Position numbers and translations under genes: made by a program. DNA of 64,000 bases from Algoriphagus limi (GTDB lineage: Bacteria > Bacteroidota > Bacteroidia > Cytophagales > Cyclobacteriaceae): the NCBI RefSeq assembly GCF_024919275.1, contig NZ_JANWGH010000001.1, positions 992,001-1,056,000 of the forward strand, in the 5' to 3' direction. Shown in pieces: positions 26,439-34,088 of the stretch. The notes under the pieces were generated by a model. It did no database searches. It was not told the DNA's origin and was given only the letters and a program-made list of their open reading frames with translations. Each line of letters starts with the position of its first letter. Position 1 is the stretch's first letter.

Positions 26439-27707
26439 ATGAGATACGCCTTTTGGACAATTATCCTGTTTCAGCTCCTTTTCATTGCTTGTTCAAGTCC
26501 AACAGAAACTTCCACACTCCTTTTTGATAATGCTGCCAGAAACCGAGTAGACAGTACTTTAAATGCTTTTGTGCAAGCTGGAAAAGTGGCTGGTATTTCT
26601 GCTTTGATTTATGAAAAGGGAGAAGAAAGATATTTTCAGGCTTTTGGCTATGCTGATCGTGAGCAACAAAAACCTATGACTCGTGAAACCATGGTTCAGA
26701 TTTATTCCATGACAAAACCGATTACTGGGACAGCATTAATGAAGCTTTATGAAAGGGGAATATTTGAACTGGATGATCCGCTTGAAAAACATCTGCCCGA
26801 ATTCTCTAACATGAAGGTGTATCAAGGGGTGGATGAAAATGGAGAAATGATACTTTCTGAAGCAGATCGATCAATTACAGTTAGGGATATCACAAGACAT
26901 ACTGCAGGCTTTCCTAACAGGGATAATATTCCCGGTTTGAGTGAAGTCATGAGAGAAAAAGATGCTCGGAATTATAACAACACATTGGCGAGCATGGCAG
27001 AAAAAATCGGGAGCACTCCCCTATGGTTTCAGCCGGGAACCCAATGGGAATATGGTTTATGCGTGGATGTTCAGGCCTATTTGGTAGAAAAGCTTTCAGG
27101 AATGCCCTATGGAGAATTCTTACAAAAGGAAGTTTTGGATCCGCTCGAGATGAATGAAACCATGTATTTCGTCCCAGAGGAATATCGGGATCGAATGGCC
27201 GCTGTTTACGAAAGGCAAACTGATGGAACATTGGCACGCCAAAATGATTCTATCGCTTATCGATTCAGCTATAATCATTGGCCATTAACCCCCGGAGGAT
27301 TTGGATTGAGTAGTACCATCGATGATTACCTGAAATTTACCAAAATGCTATTGAATGAAGGAAAGCATGGAGATCAAATAATACTTGAGCCTTCCACGGT
27401 TGAATTAATGCGGACAAATCACCTTCCAGATTCAATAAAGGAAAGATCTTGGTTACCACATCGAGGACAGGTCGGTTTTGGGATTGATTTTGCAGTACGA
27501 ATTGCACCGCCTCAAGATGCACAGGAAAATCAAGGGAACGTAGGAGAATTCTTTTGGGACGGGGCTTTGAGTACTCTTTTCTTTATTGATCCGGAGAATG
27601 AGTTGATTGCCATCATGTTTGTCCAACTTACCCCCTACGATGGTATTGGCCTTCACAAAGCATTCCGAGATGCGGTTTACGGTCCTTGGAAACCCGCCGC
27701 TAATTAA
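26439..27707 (+). CDS. Serine hydrolase, beta-lactamase family, lipoprotein
   Basis: The 422-residue protein starts with a lipoprotein signal (lipobox FIAC, Cys18). The nucleophile motif SMTK (Ser90, Lys93) appears as IYSMTKPITG, the form found in EstB-type carboxylesterases of the class C beta-lactamase fold. The tyrosine motif is probably in WEYGLCVDVQ (near 206), and the C-terminal part holds FFWDGALSTLFF in place of the usual HxG/KTG motif. It is anchored at the cell envelope and is more likely an esterase or peptidase than a true beta-lactamase. It is not closely similar to the serine hydrolase at the left end of the window. Confidence 0.87.
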   Translation: MRYAFWTIILFQLLFIACSSPTETSTLLFDNAARNRVDSTLNAFVQAGKVAGISALIYEKGEERYFQAFGYADREQQKPMTRETMVQIYSMTKPITGTALMKLYERGIFELDDPLEKHLPEFSNMKVYQGVDENGEMILSEADRSITVRDITRHTAGFPNRDNIPGLSEVMREKDARNYNNTLASMAEKIGSTPLWFQPGTQWEYGLCVDVQAYLVEKLSGMPYGEFLQKEVLDPLEMNETMYFVPEEYRDRMAAVYERQTDGTLARQNDSIAYRFSYNHWPLTPGGFGLSSTIDDYLKFTKMLLNEGKHGDQIILEPSTVELMRTNHLPDSIKERSWLPHRGQVGFGIDFAVRIAPPQDAQENQGNVGEFFWDGALSTLFFIDPENELIAIMFVQLTPYDGIGLHKAFRDAVYGPWKPAAN

Positions 27708-27728
27708 ATTCTAAAACCTTCTACAAGA

Positions 27729-27759
27729 TTTGCATGTTACGATGCTGTAGTTAACTTTG
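27729..27759 (+). promoter_or_regulatory. Promoter of the his leader and operon
   Basis: TTTG (27729-27732), a 19-bp spacer and TAACTTTG (27752-27759) match the published Bacteroidota pattern (TTTG at -33, TAnnTTTG at -7) exactly. The transcript would start within about 5 bp of the leader ATG at 27769, leaving almost no 5' untranslated region. Confidence 0.7.
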
Positions 27760-27768
27760 TCGGAACGA

Positions 27769-27852
27769 ATGAACGCTCAGGCTAAAAATATCGCCATTTT
27801 TTGCTCACATCACCATCAGGTGCATGTGCACCATTTCCATCATTCCTCTTGA
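27769..27852 (+). CDS. hisL: Histidine-rich leader peptide of the his operon
   Basis: A 27-codon frame reads MNAQAKNIAIFC followed by SHHHQVHVHHFHHSS. Eight of its last fourteen residues are histidine (14-16, 19, 21, 22, 24, 25). It ends in TGA 102 bp before hisG, the first gene of histidine biosynthesis. A promoter match lies just upstream and a terminator-like hairpin just downstream. This is the arrangement of ribosome-mediated attenuation, in which lack of charged tRNA-His stalls the ribosome on the His codons and changes RNA folding. The peptide itself probably has no function. Sequence similarity to the enterobacterial HisL is limited to the His run. Confidence 0.85.
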   Translation: MNAQAKNIAIFCSHHHQVHVHHFHHSS

Positions 27853-27907
27853 GGAGGAATAAGATTACACCCAAGCCGGTGACGTCACAATCCAGGATTG
27901 GACTTTT
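27842..27907 (+). promoter_or_regulatory. his operon attenuator region
   Basis: Just past the His codons ATTCCTC (27842-27848) can pair with GAGGAAT (27854-27860), enclosing the leader stop codon. Further on, GTCACAATCC (27884-27893) pairs with GGATTGGAC (27895-27903) with one bulged A, followed by TTTT (27904-27907), a weak terminator-like structure. GGTGA (27878-27882) and TCACC (27907-27911) can extend the stem. Within the His codons GGTGC/GCACC (27819-27823, 27828-27832) also forms a hairpin. Which pairings act as terminator and antiterminator needs folding calculations. Confidence 0.55.
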
Positions 27908-27954
27908 CACCAAAAATCATTCATCAAGTTTATTTCTTAGCGTAATTTAGACTC

Positions 27955-28815
27955 ATGGAAAAAATAATCCGTATCGCTGTCCAAAAAAGCGGACGTTTAT
28001 CCGATGATTCTTTGAAATTGATCAAAGAATGCGGGATCAAATTTTATAATGGAACAGGAAAGCTAAAATCAACCTCTACGAATTTTCCTATTGAATTTTT
28101 GTTTCTCCGAGACGATGATATACCTGGCTATGTAGCTGATGGTGTAGCTGATCTCGGAATTGTGGGAGAAAACGAATTGGTCGAAAAAGACAAAAAAGTA
28201 AAAACCCTCAAAAAACTTGGCTTCTCAAAATGTCGCCTATCACTAGCTATTCCAAAAGGTCAAACCTATTCCGGCCTATCTTATTTTGAAGGAAAAAATA
28301 TAGCGACATCCTACCCAAAGATTTTGGGAGATTACCTTGAAAAAGAGGGAATCAATGCTGAAATCCATGAAATCAGTGGATCTGTAGAAATCGCACCTAG
28401 TATTGGTTTGGCTGAAGGAATCTGTGACATCGTCAGCTCGGGATCAACCTTGATGATGAACGGGCTCAAGGAAGTGGAAGAAATCTTTACCTCAGAAGCA
28501 GTCCTCATTGCCAATGAAAACCTAGAAAATTGGAAACAGGAGATTGTTGAAAAACTCTTATTCCGAATCAATGCCGTACAGAAGGGAAAAAGCAACAAAT
28601 ACGTCCTTTTAAACGCCCCAAATCATGCCTTAGATAAAATCATAAACTTGATCCCAGGGATGCGTAGCCCTACCATTTTGCCTTTGGCTCAAGAAGGTTG
28701 GTCTTCTGTTCATTCAGTTTTGAATGAGGATCAGTTTTGGGAAAATATAGAGGAATTACGGGCAGCAGGTGCTGAAGGCATCTTGGTGGTTCCAATTGAA
28801 AAAATGGTGATATAA
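27955..28815 (+). CDS. hisG: ATP phosphoribosyltransferase, long form
   Basis: HisG joins ATP and PRPP in the first step of histidine synthesis. The 286-residue length is that of the long (HisG_L) form with a C-terminal regulatory domain. The N-terminal motif IRIAVQKSGRLSDDSLKL, DLGIVGENELVE and the PRPP-binding segment ICDIVSSGSTLMMNGL are characteristic. The C-terminal 75 residues (NHALDKIINLIPGMRSPTILPL onward, read in parts) form the histidine-feedback domain. So both enzyme feedback and a His leader appear to control this pathway. hisD follows 33 bp later. Confidence 0.97.
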   Translation: MEKIIRIAVQKSGRLSDDSLKLIKECGIKFYNGTGKLKSTSTNFPIEFLFLRDDDIPGYVADGVADLGIVGENELVEKDKKVKTLKKLGFSKCRLSLAIPKGQTYSGLSYFEGKNIATSYPKILGDYLEKEGINAEIHEISGSVEIAPSIGLAEGICDIVSSGSTLMMNGLKEVEEIFTSEAVLIANENLENWKQEIVEKLLFRINAVQKGKSNKYVLLNAPNHALDKIINLIPGMRSPTILPLAQEGWSSVHSVLNEDQFWENIEELRAAGAEGILVVPIEKMVI

Positions 28816-28848: not shown

Positions 28849-30141
28849 ATGAAAATTCTCCTCAACCCAGATAGTTCTACTTGGAAAGAAGAATTGGCAA
28901 GGCCAGTTTTTAAAACCAAAAAAATAAATCGTATCGTCAAACCAATTCTTCGAAAAGTTAGAAGAAATGGGGACAAGGCTTTGATCAAATATGCCTATGA
29001 ATTTGATCATGTCGAATTGGACAATTTACAAGTAGATCAAACTGAAATTAAAGAAGCTACAGCCGCTCTTCCAAGCGATTTGAAGGAGGCAATTTTGGTG
29101 GCTAAGAAAAATATAAAGCGATTTCATGCTGCCCAAGCTCAACCTGAATTGGTTGAGGAACTTATGCCTGGTGTGGTTTGCAGAAGAAAAAGTGTGCCTA
29201 TTCAGCGAGTTGGGCTATATATCCCAGGCGGAACAGCTCCCCTTTTTAGTACGGTCTTGATGCTTGGAATCCCAGCTAAACTCGCTGGATGCAAGGAAAT
29301 TGTGCTTTGTACGCCACCAAATGAAGAGGGTAAAATTCATCCGGCTATTTTATTTACAGCAGACCTAATCGGAATCCATAAAATCATCAAATCCGGAGGA
29401 GCTCAGGCAATTGCTGCTATGACTTTTGGGACAGAATCCGTTCCACAAGTGGATAAGATTTTTGGACCTGGAAATCAATTTGTGACAGCAGCTAAGCAAC
29501 TAGCCACCAACTTCGGGGTAGCAATTGATATGCCTGCAGGACCTTCTGAGGTTTTGGTTTATGCCGATGATACGGCTATTCCCGCATTCGTGGCGGCTGA
29601 CTTACTCTCTCAAGCAGAACATGGAGTGGATTCCCAAGTCGTGTTAGTGACGCATAGCCAGAAGTTTGCGAAAAAGGTTACAAAGGAAATAGAAGAGCAA
29701 CTAAAGCAGCTTCCAAGAAAGGATATCGCTAAAAAATCACTGGAAAATTCAGTAGCGATAGTTTTGGATGATTTAGAAACAGCTCTTGATTTGATTAATT
29801 TCTATGCACCGGAGCACCTTATTATCAGCGTGGAACAAGAGGAAGAAGCTGTACAGGGAATCGTGAATGCAGGCTCAGTATTTATTGGAAAATATACACC
29901 TGAATCTGTGGGAGATTATGCCTCAGGAACAAATCATACGCTTCCCACCTACGGTTATGCCAGAAACTATAGCGGTGTTTCCTTAGACAGTTTTGTTAAG
30001 AAAATCACCTATCAAAAATTGAGTCCTGAGGGACTAAAAAATCTTGGACCAACTGTAGAAGTGATGGCTCGAGAAGAATTATTGGAAGCACATAAAAATG
30101 CTGTCACAATTCGACTTAACTACCTGAAAAAGAATTCCTAA
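28849..30141 (+). CDS. hisD: Histidinol dehydrogenase
   Basis: HisD oxidises L-histidinol to L-histidine in two NAD-dependent steps using zinc. The 430-residue protein has VGLYIPGGTAPLFSTVLML, the family signature region QAIAAMTFGTESVPQVDKIFGPGN, DMPAGPSEVLV, the zinc/catalytic segments LLSQAEHGVDSQ and NFYAPEHLII, and GDYASGTNHTLPT. Its TAA stop shares its last base with the ATG of hisC (30141), so translation is probably coupled. Confidence 0.98.
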   Translation: MKILLNPDSSTWKEELARPVFKTKKINRIVKPILRKVRRNGDKALIKYAYEFDHVELDNLQVDQTEIKEATAALPSDLKEAILVAKKNIKRFHAAQAQPELVEELMPGVVCRRKSVPIQRVGLYIPGGTAPLFSTVLMLGIPAKLAGCKEIVLCTPPNEEGKIHPAILFTADLIGIHKIIKSGGAQAIAAMTFGTESVPQVDKIFGPGNQFVTAAKQLATNFGVAIDMPAGPSEVLVYADDTAIPAFVAADLLSQAEHGVDSQVVLVTHSQKFAKKVTKEIEEQLKQLPRKDIAKKSLENSVAIVLDDLETALDLINFYAPEHLIISVEQEEEAVQGIVNAGSVFIGKYTPESVGDYASGTNHTLPTYGYARNYSGVSLDSFVKKITYQKLSPEGLKNLGPTVEVMAREELLEAHKNAVTIRLNYLKKNS

Positions 30142-31211
30142 TGGTATTTGATCTAAATTCTTTACTTAGGCCTCATATTGCTTCTTTGAAGCCCTACACT
30201 TCTGCAAGGGATGAATACACCGGCAAGGAAGGAATCTTCTTGGATGCCAATGAAAACCCATTAGGATCGGCTACAGATGAAGACTTCAATCGCTACCCAG
30301 ATCCGTATCAATGGGAGATCAAAAATCAGCTCTCAAAAATCAAGAATGTTCGACCTGAACAGATCTTTTTGGGGAATGGATCCGATGAGGCGATTGATCT
30401 TTTGTTTCGGGCGTTTTGCAACCCAGGAAAGGATAATGTAATTCTTCTGCCTCCTACCTACGGAATGTATGAGGTCAGCGCATCTATCAATGATGTGGAT
30501 ACCAACAAGGTTTCTCTGACAGAAGATTTTCAGTTAGATTCTGAAAAGGTTCTTAAAGAGGTAGACGAACATACCAAAATCATCTTTATCTGCTCTCCCA
30601 ATAATCCAAGCGGAAATAAAATTGATCGGAATTCGATATACAAAATCCTAGATCAATTCCAGGGCTTGGTGGTTATTGATGAGGCTTACATTGATTTCAA
30701 TGATGAGCCAAGCTTTACTCAAGATTTGGATATCTATCCCAATCTTTTGGTGATGCAGACACTTTCAAAAGCCTGGGGATTAGCTTCACTTCGCCTAGGA
30801 ATGGCTTTCGCCTCGGAAGAATTGATTCGAATTCTTAACCGAATCAAGCCTCCATACAATATATCCGGACTAACTCAGGAATATGTCCTCAAAGCGCTTC
30901 AGAACGAAAAGAAAGTGCGATCCATGATTCAGACCATCCTTGATGAAAAGGAAAGACTGGAAAAGGAATTGGAAAAGCTGGATTTTGTTCAAAAAGTATA
31001 TCCATCCAATGCCAATTTCTTCTTGGTGAAAGTTCCTCAGGCAACTGATTTCTATAATCATTTGATCAATCACAAAATCATTGTGCGAAACCGGTCCAAA
31101 GTTCAGCTTTGTGAGGATTGCTTAAGAATTACCATTGGGACAAAAGATGAAAACCAAGCCTTGATAAATGCTATGAAAAAAGTGTCTAAGGAAATCGGGA
31201 TTCAGAATTAA
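30141..31211 (+). CDS. hisC: Histidinol-phosphate aminotransferase
   Basis: The 356-residue fold type I PLP enzyme carries FLDANENPLG near the N-terminus, FLGNGSDEAIDLL, CSPNNPSGN, VIDEAYIDF and the PLP-lysine segment TLSKAWGLASLRLGMA. It transfers an amino group from glutamate to imidazole acetol phosphate. It starts on the last base of the hisD stop codon and is followed 16 bp later by hisB. The position between hisD and hisB excludes the other class II aminotransferase roles this fold can have. Confidence 0.97.
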   Translation: MVFDLNSLLRPHIASLKPYTSARDEYTGKEGIFLDANENPLGSATDEDFNRYPDPYQWEIKNQLSKIKNVRPEQIFLGNGSDEAIDLLFRAFCNPGKDNVILLPPTYGMYEVSASINDVDTNKVSLTEDFQLDSEKVLKEVDEHTKIIFICSPNNPSGNKIDRNSIYKILDQFQGLVVIDEAYIDFNDEPSFTQDLDIYPNLLVMQTLSKAWGLASLRLGMAFASEELIRILNRIKPPYNISGLTQEYVLKALQNEKKVRSMIQTILDEKERLEKELEKLDFVQKVYPSNANFFLVKVPQATDFYNHLINHKIIVRNRSKVQLCEDCLRITIGTKDENQALINAMKKVSKEIGIQN

Positions 31212-31227
31212 ATAAAAAAGGATTTTG

Positions 31228-32325
31228 ATGAAAAAGAAAGTATTGTTTATAGATCGGGATGGGACTATTATCAAAGAGCCCCCAACTGACCATCAGGTGG
31301 ACAGCCTAGAAAAGTTGGAATTCATCCCAAAGGCCATATCCAATCTTCGAAAAATTGCCGAGGAGACGGATTACCATTTAGTTATGGTTACAAATCAAGA
31401 TGGTTTGGGAACTGATTCTTTTCCGGAACAGGACTTTTGGCCCGCTCAATACAAAATGTTAAAAACCCTGGAACAGGAAAATGTTTTATTCAAAGCTATC
31501 CATGTGGACCGCTCTTTCGAACATGAAAATGCACCCACTCGCAAACCACGAACAGGAATGCTGGAAGAGTATTTTTCTGATGAATATGATTTGGCAAATT
31601 CCTTTGTTATCGGAGATCGGGTAACTGACATTCAGTTGGCTCAAAATTTGGGTTCTCAGGCCATATTTTTGGGAGAATCACACGAAGATGCTGCACTTTC
31701 AACCTATGATTGGGACGAAATCTACCAGTTTCTGAAAATGCCTCCGCGCAAAGCCTCGGTGATAAGGACGACTTCAGAAACTGACATTCGAATAAATCTC
31801 AATTTGGACGGAAGTGGAAAATGCAAAATCAACACAGGCTTGAGCTTTTTTGATCACATGCTTGAGCAGCTTGGAAAACATGGGGCTACCGATTTGGAGA
31901 TTGAAGTGAATGGTGACCTCCACATCGATGAGCATCATACGATAGAAGATACTGCTTTGGCTCTGGGAGAAGCCTATTTAAAGGCTTTAGGGGACAAAAA
32001 AGGCATTTATCGATATGGTTTCTTATTGCCGATGGATGATGCGCTCGCACAGGTGGCTATTGACTTTGGGGGAAGACCTTGGTTGGTTTGGGATGCAGAA
32101 TTTAAGCGAGAAAAAATCGGGGACATGCCTACGGAGATGTTTTACCATTTCTTCAAATCATTCTCAGATACAGCTAAATGTAACCTCAATATCAAAGTCG
32201 AAGGAAATAATGAACACCATAAAATTGAGGCAATATTCAAAGGCTTGGCTAGAGCTATCAAAATGGCAGTGAAAAGAGATCCTCAAACTATAAATCAACT
32301 CCCAAGTACAAAAGGAATTCTTTGA
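31228..32325 (+). CDS. hisB: Bifunctional histidinol phosphatase / imidazoleglycerol-phosphate dehydratase
   Basis: The 365-residue protein fuses a HAD-family phosphatase (residues 1-165, motif FIDRDGTI, later [13 protein letters not shown]) to an IGPD dehydratase (about 175-365, with [29 protein letters not shown] and the manganese-binding [14 protein letters not shown]). Together they catalyse two non-adjacent steps of the pathway. ATG at 31228 is preferred to the TTG directly before it. This is the last his gene here; downstream is an unrelated TPR lipoprotein gene, so hisH, hisA, hisF and hisI must lie elsewhere. Confidence 0.97.
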
Positions 32326-32392: not shown

Positions 32393-33190
32393 ATGCTACG
32401 AAAAATTAATATATCAGCCTTTATTTTTCTGTTCCTGGTATTTACATCTTGTCGATCAGAGCTTTATGAGGCCGAGCAATTATTTTTGGACAAACAATAC
32501 GAAAGGGCGATCAGCAATTTAAATACCTACCTATTTTTTAATGTAACGGATATTAAGGCATTTCACCTTCGAGCACGCTCTTATGAAGAGATGGGAAGAA
32601 TTCAGGACGCATTAGAAGATTATGAACGAATTATTTCCCTGAATCCAGAATATGCGCAAGCTCATGCCGGCATCGGGAAAATCCTTTTTAATCAAAAACA
32701 ATACAAAGAAGCAGAGCTTCGCTTATTACGGGCTGCAAAATATGATCCAGCGGATTTCGATATTCTGTACCTCTTGGGAAGAGCTTTGCTCCAAAATAAA
32801 AATTACTCCCTAGCGGAGGAGTTTTTCCAAAAAGCAAAGGAATTGAATGATCAGCATGCACGACTTCATTTTTATCTAGGAATGGCAAGGGCTTACCGCG
32901 GAGATGTTTTGGGCTGTGCAGCTTCTTTTAATCAATACGTCAAACTAGAACCAGATAACTTGGTTGGTCGGTACAATCGAGGTTTTGCCTTGATGAAAGT
33001 AGGTTACTTGGAATGGGCTTTGGAAGATTTTGAAGCCGTTTTGAAGAAATATCCAGACCACTTGGAGGCACTGGCAAAAAAAGGAATTTGCTTAGCTCAA
33101 ATGGGAAATACCGAAGGTTGCCAATATATCCAAGAAGCAGCTTCTCAAGGTTCTGATTACGCTTTAAATCATTTAGATCTCTGTTCTTAA
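32393..33190 (+). CDS. TPR-repeat lipoprotein
   Basis: The start at 32393 gives 265 residues opening MLRKINISAFIFLFLVFTSC, a lipoprotein signal with lipobox FTSC (Cys20). The 13 residues from an upstream ATG at 32354 would spoil it. At least five tetratricopeptide repeats follow, for example AFHLRARSYEEMGRIQDALEDYERI (read in parts), AQAHAGIGKILFNQKQYKEAE and GRYNRGFALMKVGYLEWALEDF. TPR lipoproteins act as protein-binding scaffolds in the envelope; the partner is unknown. Its TAA stop overlaps the stop of the convergent ATP-grasp gene by three bases. Confidence 0.85.
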   Translation: MLRKINISAFIFLFLVFTSCRSELYEAEQLFLDKQYERAISNLNTYLFFNVTDIKAFHLRARSYEEMGRIQDALEDYERIISLNPEYAQAHAGIGKILFNQKQYKEAELRLLRAAKYDPADFDILYLLGRALLQNKNYSLAEEFFQKAKELNDQHARLHFYLGMARAYRGDVLGCAASFNQYVKLEPDNLVGRYNRGFALMKVGYLEWALEDFEAVLKKYPDHLEALAKKGICLAQMGNTEGCQYIQEAASQGSDYALNHLDLCS

Positions 33191-34065
33191 GAAAGCCTTT
33201 GGTTTATTGCAGCTCTATAATTTGGAATAGCTTCGCCTGTTAATCCCAGAAACAGATAAGGCTCAATCAGTTCCAATTCCATTAAATAGAACTCCCCAGC
33301 TATTTCCACACCATCAACTCTAGCATAAAGGGAATTTGATGCAAATTGCTCCACGAAGCGCTGAGCGATTTGAAGAATTTTGTTGCTTGGCTGAATCACT
33401 TGGATCGTTCCCCCGAAGTAATGCTGAACTCGGAAATCCTCCTTTTTTGGAGTTTTCAAAACCGCATGAGAAAATTTCCCATTAAAGAAAATCAAGGAAT
33501 ACTCCCCTATTTCAGCTACTTCCTTTACAAATGGCTGAACGATGAAAGCTTCTTCTTTTAAAAGCTCCTCAAGCTTTCCTGCGTACTCTTTCCAATTTTC
33601 TTCAGAAATTTTAAAAGTATTTTTCGCTCCACCACTGACCAAAGGTTTAACTACAGTCCAACCTGATTTCATTTCTTTTTTGATTTGGGAAAAGTCTGGT
33701 TTTGATCCTTTTTCCAAGACAAATCCTGAAATAACCGGAAAACCTTTCTCCGCCATTTCAATCAAATAGCGTTTATTACTATTCCATCGAATGGTTTTAA
33801 TATCATTTAGGACTGGAATTTTTAGCGATTCAATTCGGTCCAACCAATCCAAAAATTCAGGATAGTAATCGAAATAATCCCAAACAGATTTAATTAAAAG
33901 AGCATCAAATTCTTCCCATTGAACCTTAGGATCAGACCATGGTAGAATTTCATTTTCAAAACCTAAATCCTTTAAAATCCCAGAAAGAATTTGATCCTCA
34001 TCGATGGTATTTGCATCGTATGCACCTGTAGAAATGTAGCTAACTATTCCAATCTTCTTTTTCAT
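33187..34065 (-). CDS. ATP-grasp ligase-like protein (RimK/DcsG type)
   Basis: The 292-residue product from the ATG complementary to 34063-34065 (MKKKIGIVSYIS) has an ATP-grasp layout. An N-terminal pre-grasp domain contains LIKSVWDYFDYY. The central domain has GWTVVKPLVSGGAKNTF (P-loop-like glycine segment and lysine) and EAFIVQPFVKEV, and the metal and ATP ligands fall in ARVDGVEIAGEFYLMELELIEPYL. Such proteins join a carboxylate to an amine or hydroxyl group using ATP. The closest named relatives I recall are the cycloserine cyclo-ligase DcsG and glutathione-synthetase-like enzymes. Substrate unknown, and no biosynthetic cluster surrounds it. Confidence 0.75.
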   Translation of the reverse strand: MKKKIGIVSYISTGAYDANTIDEDQILSGILKDLGFENEILPWSDPKVQWEEFDALLIKSVWDYFDYYPEFLDWLDRIESLKIPVLNDIKTIRWNSNKRYLIEMAEKGFPVISGFVLEKGSKPDFSQIKKEMKSGWTVVKPLVSGGAKNTFKISEENWKEYAGKLEELLKEEAFIVQPFVKEVAEIGEYSLIFFNGKFSHAVLKTPKKEDFRVQHYFGGTIQVIQPSNKILQIAQRFVEQFASNSLYARVDGVEIAGEFYLMELELIEPYLFLGLTGEAIPNYRAAINQRLS

Positions 34066-34080
34066 ATTCCTATTTTGCCC

Positions 34081-34088
34081 CAAAAATA
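34081..34088 (-). promoter_or_regulatory. Candidate -7 box for the ATP-grasp gene
   Basis: The minus strand reads TATTTTTG here, matching TAnnTTTG. It lies about 15 bp before the preferred start codon. An inverted repeat CTATTTT/AAAATAG (34070-34076, 34083-34089) overlaps it. No convincing -33 element at normal spacing. Confidence 0.3.

Follow-up and report, generated by a model that had tools for sequence, protein, structure and literature searches.

The histidine operon of Algoriphagus limi is preceded by a conserved His-rich leader ORF, which very probably acts as a starvation sensor, and the clade is predicted to be without either half of the classical attenuation switch, terminator or antiterminator, at this operon. 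The ORF, its conservation and the missing switch elements emerged from comparison with the loci of relatives, as did three leader hairpins, which are likely although one comparative test went against them.

The his locus and its promoter

The window, the 64,000 nt stretch of DNA analyzed here, carries hisG encoding ATP phosphoribosyltransferase (27955..28815; TIGR00070), hisD (28849..30141; TIGR00069), hisC (30141..31211; TIGR01141) and a bifunctional hisB (31225..32325; NF003937) consecutively on the plus strand from 27955. An earlier note on this DNA had placed a fully matching promoter, TTTG-N19-TAACTTTG, and a leader directly upstream of hisG, and both placements hold. Promoter P1 (27729..27759, plus strand) is an exact Bacteroidota-type promoter consisting of TTTG (-33) at 27729-27732, a 19-nt spacer and TAACTTTG (-7) at 27752-27759, and the leader ORF (27769..27852, plus strand) ends with a stop codon at 27850-27852, followed by the hisG start at 27955. 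The leader ATG at 27769 begins 9 nt past the TAACTTTG box. The -7 box is located at -12 to -5 relative to the start site in Flavobacterium psychrophilum, according to a passage of PMC9723704; with the same spacing, transcription is predicted to start at about 27764 and the leader 5′UTR to be about 5 nt. 5′UTRs of <10 nt are infrequent in the phylum, amounting to ~3.7% in Bacteroides thetaiotaomicron in an excerpt of PMC7366714, and leaderless transcripts make up 5.5% in F. psychrophilum (PMC9723704, in part). The upstream neighbor at 26439-27707, whose end lies 21 nt upstream of the P1 TTTG, appears to be a serine hydrolase of the beta-lactamase/esterase kind; its best model, AcmB, gives 185 bits against a cut-off of 550, and the protein stays under the cut-off of every family shown. 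On the minus strand, 33187-34083 encodes an ATP-grasp protein distantly like the D-cycloserine synthetase DcsG (153 bits, cut-off 360).

Leader features were counted in a diverged set drawn from 135 entries with a leader, including 17 manual additions; listed loci with a terminator were left out, and thinning at 85% identity left 89 entries. They correspond to 88 distinct loci, since L192 occurs twice with two different ORFs, and include the locus of the window; the set is not a random sample, and its figures describe leaders rather than how frequent leaders are. A TAnnTTTG box lies 10-30 nt 5′ of the leader ATG in 82/89 entries (own locus counted) and 12-18 nt 5′ in 77, and TTG is found exactly 19 nt upstream of 61 of the 82 boxes.

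A His-rich leader ORF is widespread in the class

The leader ORF encodes MNAQAKNIAIFCSHHHQVHVHHFHHSS, a 27-codon frame in which all eight His codons fall within the last 14, as had been described from the sequence. The His density, which had been judged far above chance, is unique among the 1154 ATG-initiated frames of 8-60 codons, counting every ATG on either strand of the window, the next best being one frame with five and one with four His in 14 codons. Among named Algoriphagus and Cyclobacteriaceae records, identity to the HisG protein of the window reaches 97%. Across the genus, the leader retains the ending HHFHHS, after which comes S, F or a different residue, and its first half is variable.

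We searched for ATG-initiated ORFs with at least three His in 14 codons, no more than 300 nt upstream of hisG and without prior selection. Such an ORF was present at 21/21 genus loci, 78/78 named loci, 101/108 family loci and 4/8 loci from other families of the order, compared with 0, 1, 5 and 0 loci, respectively, on the antisense strand and 5-7% in shuffled controls. These frequencies exclude three loci whose upstream DNA was too short, and the genome sets behind the genus, named and family samples partly overlap. A class-wide sample of 149 genomes, 66 of which have hisG, yielded 59 loci for examination, where 50/59 carry a His-rich ORF versus 5/59 on the antisense strand; hisG genomes left aside comprise five of the genus or family, one of the order and one with a split gene, seven in all, and the hisG start was not resolved to an ATG in 8/59 loci. 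Conservation of the frame in relatives, the main check proposed in the earlier note, thus extends far outside the genus, and a conserved ORF with a run of cognate codons stands right before the operon.

His-rich leader ORFs are therefore common ahead of hisG throughout the class, yet none of 4227 Rfam families matched the window at gathering score, including RF00514, the His_leader family of enterobacteria. In a search for leader copies at other sites of the genomes, a covariance model built from many his leader loci (R1) found a strong match in 18/20 genus genomes, and the two that it missed (G007 and G011) also gave no hisG match. Each matching genome has one strong R1 site except G008, with two sites on two contigs; three further matches are weak (E 0.08-0.97).

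In Algoriphagus, intrinsic terminators are missing at his but kept at trp and ilv

The leader had also been credited with a terminator-like hairpin. Hairpins are indeed predicted, but no T-run follows any of them, and a terminator scan of 27700-28200 returned a sole site on the minus strand and none on the plus strand. By a strict rule (a stem with at least four G-C pairs, a score of at least 13 and a T-run, within the 180 nt before hisG), terminators were absent from all 21 genus loci, all 78 named loci and all 44 family loci whose HisG is at least 80% identical. The same rule identified a terminator in 1/41 family loci with HisG of 66-79% identity, in 20/23 with at most 65% identity, and in 43/59 class loci, 40 of the 59 having both leader and terminator. 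Shuffled sequences passed at 0-0.5%. The family groups were first cut partly after the terminator scan, and strict regrouping by HisG identity, with ~20 codons of hisG fetched for most family loci, gave equal counts. As the terminator-bearing his leaders are spread over the class, we infer that they represent the older state. Distant genomes of the class sample (L302-L305) have His-rich ORFs, e.g. MNGYKQHHLSLHHHHHVVIR, with no terminator found and the hisG start not resolved, and these are possibly another terminator loss.

A loose rule (at least 6 bp including three G-C) gave 0/21 genus and 17/78 named loci, 19/44, 3/41 and 21/23 family loci in the order of decreasing HisG identity, and 44/59 class loci, with shuffles passing at 2-8% overall and 5-8% for the named and near family loci. 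Most matches in the near family loci are hairpin H2 (see below) with a partial U-stretch. Some sister genera may therefore keep a weak terminator signal at H2; the genus is clean under both rules and in this respect lacks the intrinsic terminator of a classical transcription attenuator.

The strict rule recognized terminators at 12/12 trp and 11/11 ilv leaders of Algoriphagus genomes. In the genome of the window, the trp leader is MKTTTNKYWWWHLNSFPGKVQQALA (L222, C3; about -201..-123 before the trpE match) and the leader of the branched-chain operon ilv is MNRSVFLLSIIILLGF (L236, C2; about -188..-137 before the ilvD match), both accompanied by a strong intrinsic terminator. A WW-containing trp leader occurs in 12/12 genus loci, where its ATG lies 17-19 nt past TAnnTTTG, so that it is nearly leaderless.

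Three hairpins are predicted in the his leader

Folding of the plus strand predicted hairpin H1 within the ORF immediately upstream of the HHFHHSS codons (27806..27828), H2 across the leader stop codon (27842..27860; AUUCCUCU-UGA-GGAGGAAU), an unpaired stretch AAGATTACACCCAAGCC (27861..27877), and H3 (27878..27911), which has an outer stem GGUGA..UUCACC and an inner stem and is followed by AAAAAUCA, not by U. The whole leader fold of the window has a z score of -2.25. When 30-nt windows of the 89 diverged entries were compared with dinucleotide shuffles, with positions counted from the end of the leader stop codon, structure peaked at H2 most strongly (-12..+17, mean z -2.2), at H1 (-51..-22, mean z -1.1) and at H3 (about +30..+59, mean z -0.9). 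The stretch between H1 and H2, which holds the His codons, and the last stretch ahead of hisG were at background.

In a 47-row genus alignment, all seven H1 pairs change on both sides in some row with 73% of cells paired, the pairing in the window being in a register shifted from the genus-common one. For H3, the paired fraction is 95% in one stem and 88% in the other, with a few double changes; H2 hardly varies. Double-change cells numbered 60, versus 28 in shuffles and 11-39 in slid controls. In the diverged set, an H2 stem of at least 5 bp was found in 72/89 entries with differing arm sequences, for example ATTCCTC/GAGGAAT, ATTGCT/AGCAAT, ATCTCTC/GAGAGAT and ACCTCC/GGAGGT across genera. Tree-based covariation gave no significant helix pair: clade A (57 rows) had none, and clade B (34 rows) had one pair at E 0.3 that is only 24% pairable. 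The register of H1 shifts between species and the covariation test punishes such shifts, but the negative result still stands. RNAalifold on alignment A1 returned only four pairs and did not recover the three hairpins. Taken together, H1, H2 and H3 are likely to be real hairpins.

Three further pairings were considered and dropped by eye, as each showed no supporting variation or would regulate with the wrong sign: the H3 loop AGGGAU with AUUCCU of the leader, the 3′ arm of H2 with H3, and the 5′ arm of H3 with TTAGCGTAAC ahead of hisG. The 3′ arm of H2 (27853-27858 in the window, and in relatives) often carries GGAGGA, which resembles a Shine-Dalgarno sequence and touches the leader stop codon. 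The absence of Shine-Dalgarno sequences is noted in a passage of PMC9723704, and GGAGGA is thus odd in a phylum with little use of them. In alignment A2 (27 rows from Belliella, Echinicola, Cecembia and others), a near-invariant and apparently unpaired ACATATCGCCC lies ~17 nt past the leader stop codon between H2 and H3 and is possibly a binding site. ATATCGC follows the leader stop codon in 28/89 diverged entries.

Ribosome position is not predicted to refold the leader on average

Pairing of the leader end with the 5′ arm of the downstream hairpin exceeded shuffles in 4/79 terminator-less his leaders, a subset of the diverged set for which about 4 were expected. The same test scored 18/51 terminator-bearing his leaders, a set chosen by eye, and 6/12 trp and 10/10 ilv leaders, so that it is not fully sensitive even on these positives; the antiterminator of a classical transcription attenuator is thus not seen above chance at the terminator-less loci. 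Partition-function folding of the 89 entries was compared between two ribosome positions, the last His run and the stop codon. Pairing of the hisG start region remained unchanged (mean difference -0.006; >0.1 in 1/89 and <-0.1 in 3/89), and H3 was barely altered (mean -0.3 pairs; >+1 in 10/89 and <-1 in 17/89). With so little change at the hisG start and at H3, folding does not in general predict masking of the start site or a terminator switch. The comparison of terminator and antiterminator folds that the earlier note had asked for therefore yielded no mean ribosome-dependent change, and of its attenuator the conserved His-rich leader survives, not the terminator in the genus, an above-chance antiterminator or mean refolding.

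It is nevertheless conceivable, if unlikely, that the leader is a transcription attenuator after all, in which H3 or H2 terminates without a good U-run, e.g. with NusA/NusG, and ribosome position decides. Three tandem hairpins ahead of the first gene recall the plan of the his attenuator, and the position of H3 is roughly that of the terminator in relatives. Outside Algoriphagus, H2 often comes with a partial U-stretch, as reflected in the loose-rule counts for the named and nearest family loci; when H2 is considered, four loci reach a score of 12 and L164 reaches 13, and L187 has a plausible H3 terminator that the strict rule missed. However, the H3 zone contains a mean of 2.77 T in 8 nt (n=77, a subset of the diverged set; at least five in 7 entries), against 5.17 in terminator-bearing his, 4.25 in trp and 6.09 in ilv leaders, and its hairpins are weaker (-8.0 versus -14.9 to -19.5 kcal/mol). 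The chance-level antiterminator, the missing refolding and the clean genus, whose trp and ilv leaders keep ordinary terminators, argue in the same direction.

Translational attenuation, in which leader translation would open or close the hisG start, with or without later Rho polarity in hisG, we likewise consider improbable. It would be consistent with terminator loss, and the design is known from toiL-topAI, where an excerpt of PMC12121999 describes translation control followed by Rho. The hisG start is, however, about equally unpaired whichever site the ribosome occupies, and 30-nt windows from +36 to +86 have no structure above chance; sequestration of the start region was thus not found by secondary-structure prediction, which leaves out pseudoknots and proteins.

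There is also a slim chance that ribosome position sets mRNA decay or processing rather than transcription. In Salmonella speF, a structure resistant to RNase G is selected when the ribosome pauses at Arg codons, according to a part of PMC6386406, and no other role for H1-H3 is evident.

A second box precedes hisG

The sequence TAATTTAG (27943..27950, plus strand), at -12 to -5 of the hisG ATG, is a degenerate TAnnTTGY. An exact TAnnTTGY occurs at -12 of hisG in 29/89 diverged entries (e.g. L004 and L095), versus 0.12 expected from shuffles, and is identical to the SM5 box, an alternative promoter class of F. psychrophilum described in a section of PMC9723704. Its placement would fit a leaderless hisG mRNA starting at the AUG from an alternative-sigma promoter. 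As an ordinary promoter (P2) the box was rejected: it is precisely placed, but a -33 TTG, sought 16-23 nt upstream, is missing for 64 of 78 boxes (redundant loci included). That the leader is a relic, regulation having moved to this second hisG promoter or to a DNA-binding protein, is very unlikely despite the recurrent box: the box of the window is degenerate, most boxes have no TTG at the expected distance upstream, and the His codons are retained in other genera together with the structure peaks at H1 and H2.

A stalled ribosome may shield a Rho loading site

Short of even confidence, we lean toward a His sensor in which the stalled ribosome exerts control although no intrinsic terminator is present, possibly by covering a site where Rho loads. 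It is highly probable that ribosomes stall on the His codons, with the sign of control given here. A ribosome would initiate on the almost leaderless 27-codon ORF while the RNA emerges. With ample His-tRNA, it would pass the His codons, reach the stop codon and depart, and H1 and H2 would fold. With scarce His-tRNA, it would stall in the HHFHH run, and the stalled ribosome itself would be the switch, its likeliest target being Rho. The putative loading site would consist of the His-codon stretch and a second C-rich stretch past H2, split by the hairpin; a stalled ribosome would cover the first stretch, and RNA polymerase would reach hisGDCB.

Rho as the output step is a tentative assignment. 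Rho loads on YC-rich, G-poor single-stranded RNA, and the first YC stretch would be hidden under a ribosome halted at the His codons, which gives the right sign: starvation turns the operon on. The Rho gene is present in the genome. Over the final 27 nt of the ORF, YC density is 0.252 and G content 0.10 in the 89 diverged entries, versus 0.093 and 0.23 in the 51 terminator-bearing relatives, p-values of these comparisons ignoring ancestry. At +12..+40, which reaches into H3, YC density is 0.154 in the clade and 0.073 in terminator-bearing relatives, with 0.185 in the window. The window leader has a YC density of 0.269, compared with 0.128 for Algoriphagus trp, 0.158 for ilv and 0.118 for the window background. 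Against Rho, YC of the whole leader reaches only the 76th percentile of the window, and the YC richness may come from codon choice (HHFHHSS) and shared ancestry, the compared sets being clades. The gap from leader stop codon to hisG is short, with a median of 98 and a minimum of 39 nt, which is the main difficulty for Rho loading and catch-up. Composition is only suggestive of a Rho site.

Relation to known leader systems

The his, trp and ilv attenuators of enterobacteria are of the ribosome-mediated type. The his leader of A. limi shares with them a short ORF rich in cognate codons between promoter and first gene, with hairpins after it, and the same plan is found in the terminator-bearing his leaders of relatives and in the trp and ilv leaders of Algoriphagus. 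Unlike these attenuators, the his leaders of Algoriphagus and near genera have no strict terminator or above-chance antiterminator, and two of their hairpins lie within the ORF and over its stop codon, respectively. At tnaC, leader translation opposes Rho. The same opposition is described for speF/orf34, where pausing at cognate codons matters in speF (PMC6386406, in part). In contrast to tnaC and speF/orf34, the role of Rho is a proposal here and the operon is biosynthetic, presumably on in starvation.

The remark in the earlier note that such leaders are rarely annotated in Bacteroidota is fair, with the qualification that leader-peptide attenuation of amino-acid operons is already reported for Flavobacteriaceae, together with a structured 5′ element at hisG, in parts of PMC9723704. 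That element resembles ours in phylum and gene and in the concept of attenuation by a leader peptide; it belongs to another family, and the likeness is one of description. The Bacteroid-trp RNA motif RF01692, tabulated in a portion of PMC2864571, is likewise a predicted cis-regulatory RNA in Bacteroidetes, with a tie to trp taken from its name; unlike RF01692, the A. limi leader belongs to no Rfam family at gathering score. sORFs reminiscent of leader peptides are mentioned in an excerpt of PMC7366714. Leader-peptide attenuation in the phylum is thus already published, and for the terminator-less his leader in Bacteroidota there was no description among the matches listed in the open-access literature.

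It is possible, if rather doubtful, that one clade has rebuilt its his attenuator, with terminator and antiterminator gone and a stalled ribosome shielding a hairpin-split Rho site, while trp and ilv stay textbook. The his leader is a natural experiment on attenuator evolution, as his is without a terminator and two sister operons keep theirs, with the sensing leader retained. Terminator-free control by a starvation-stalled ribosome becomes testable, in a phylum with non-textbook promoters and translation initiation.
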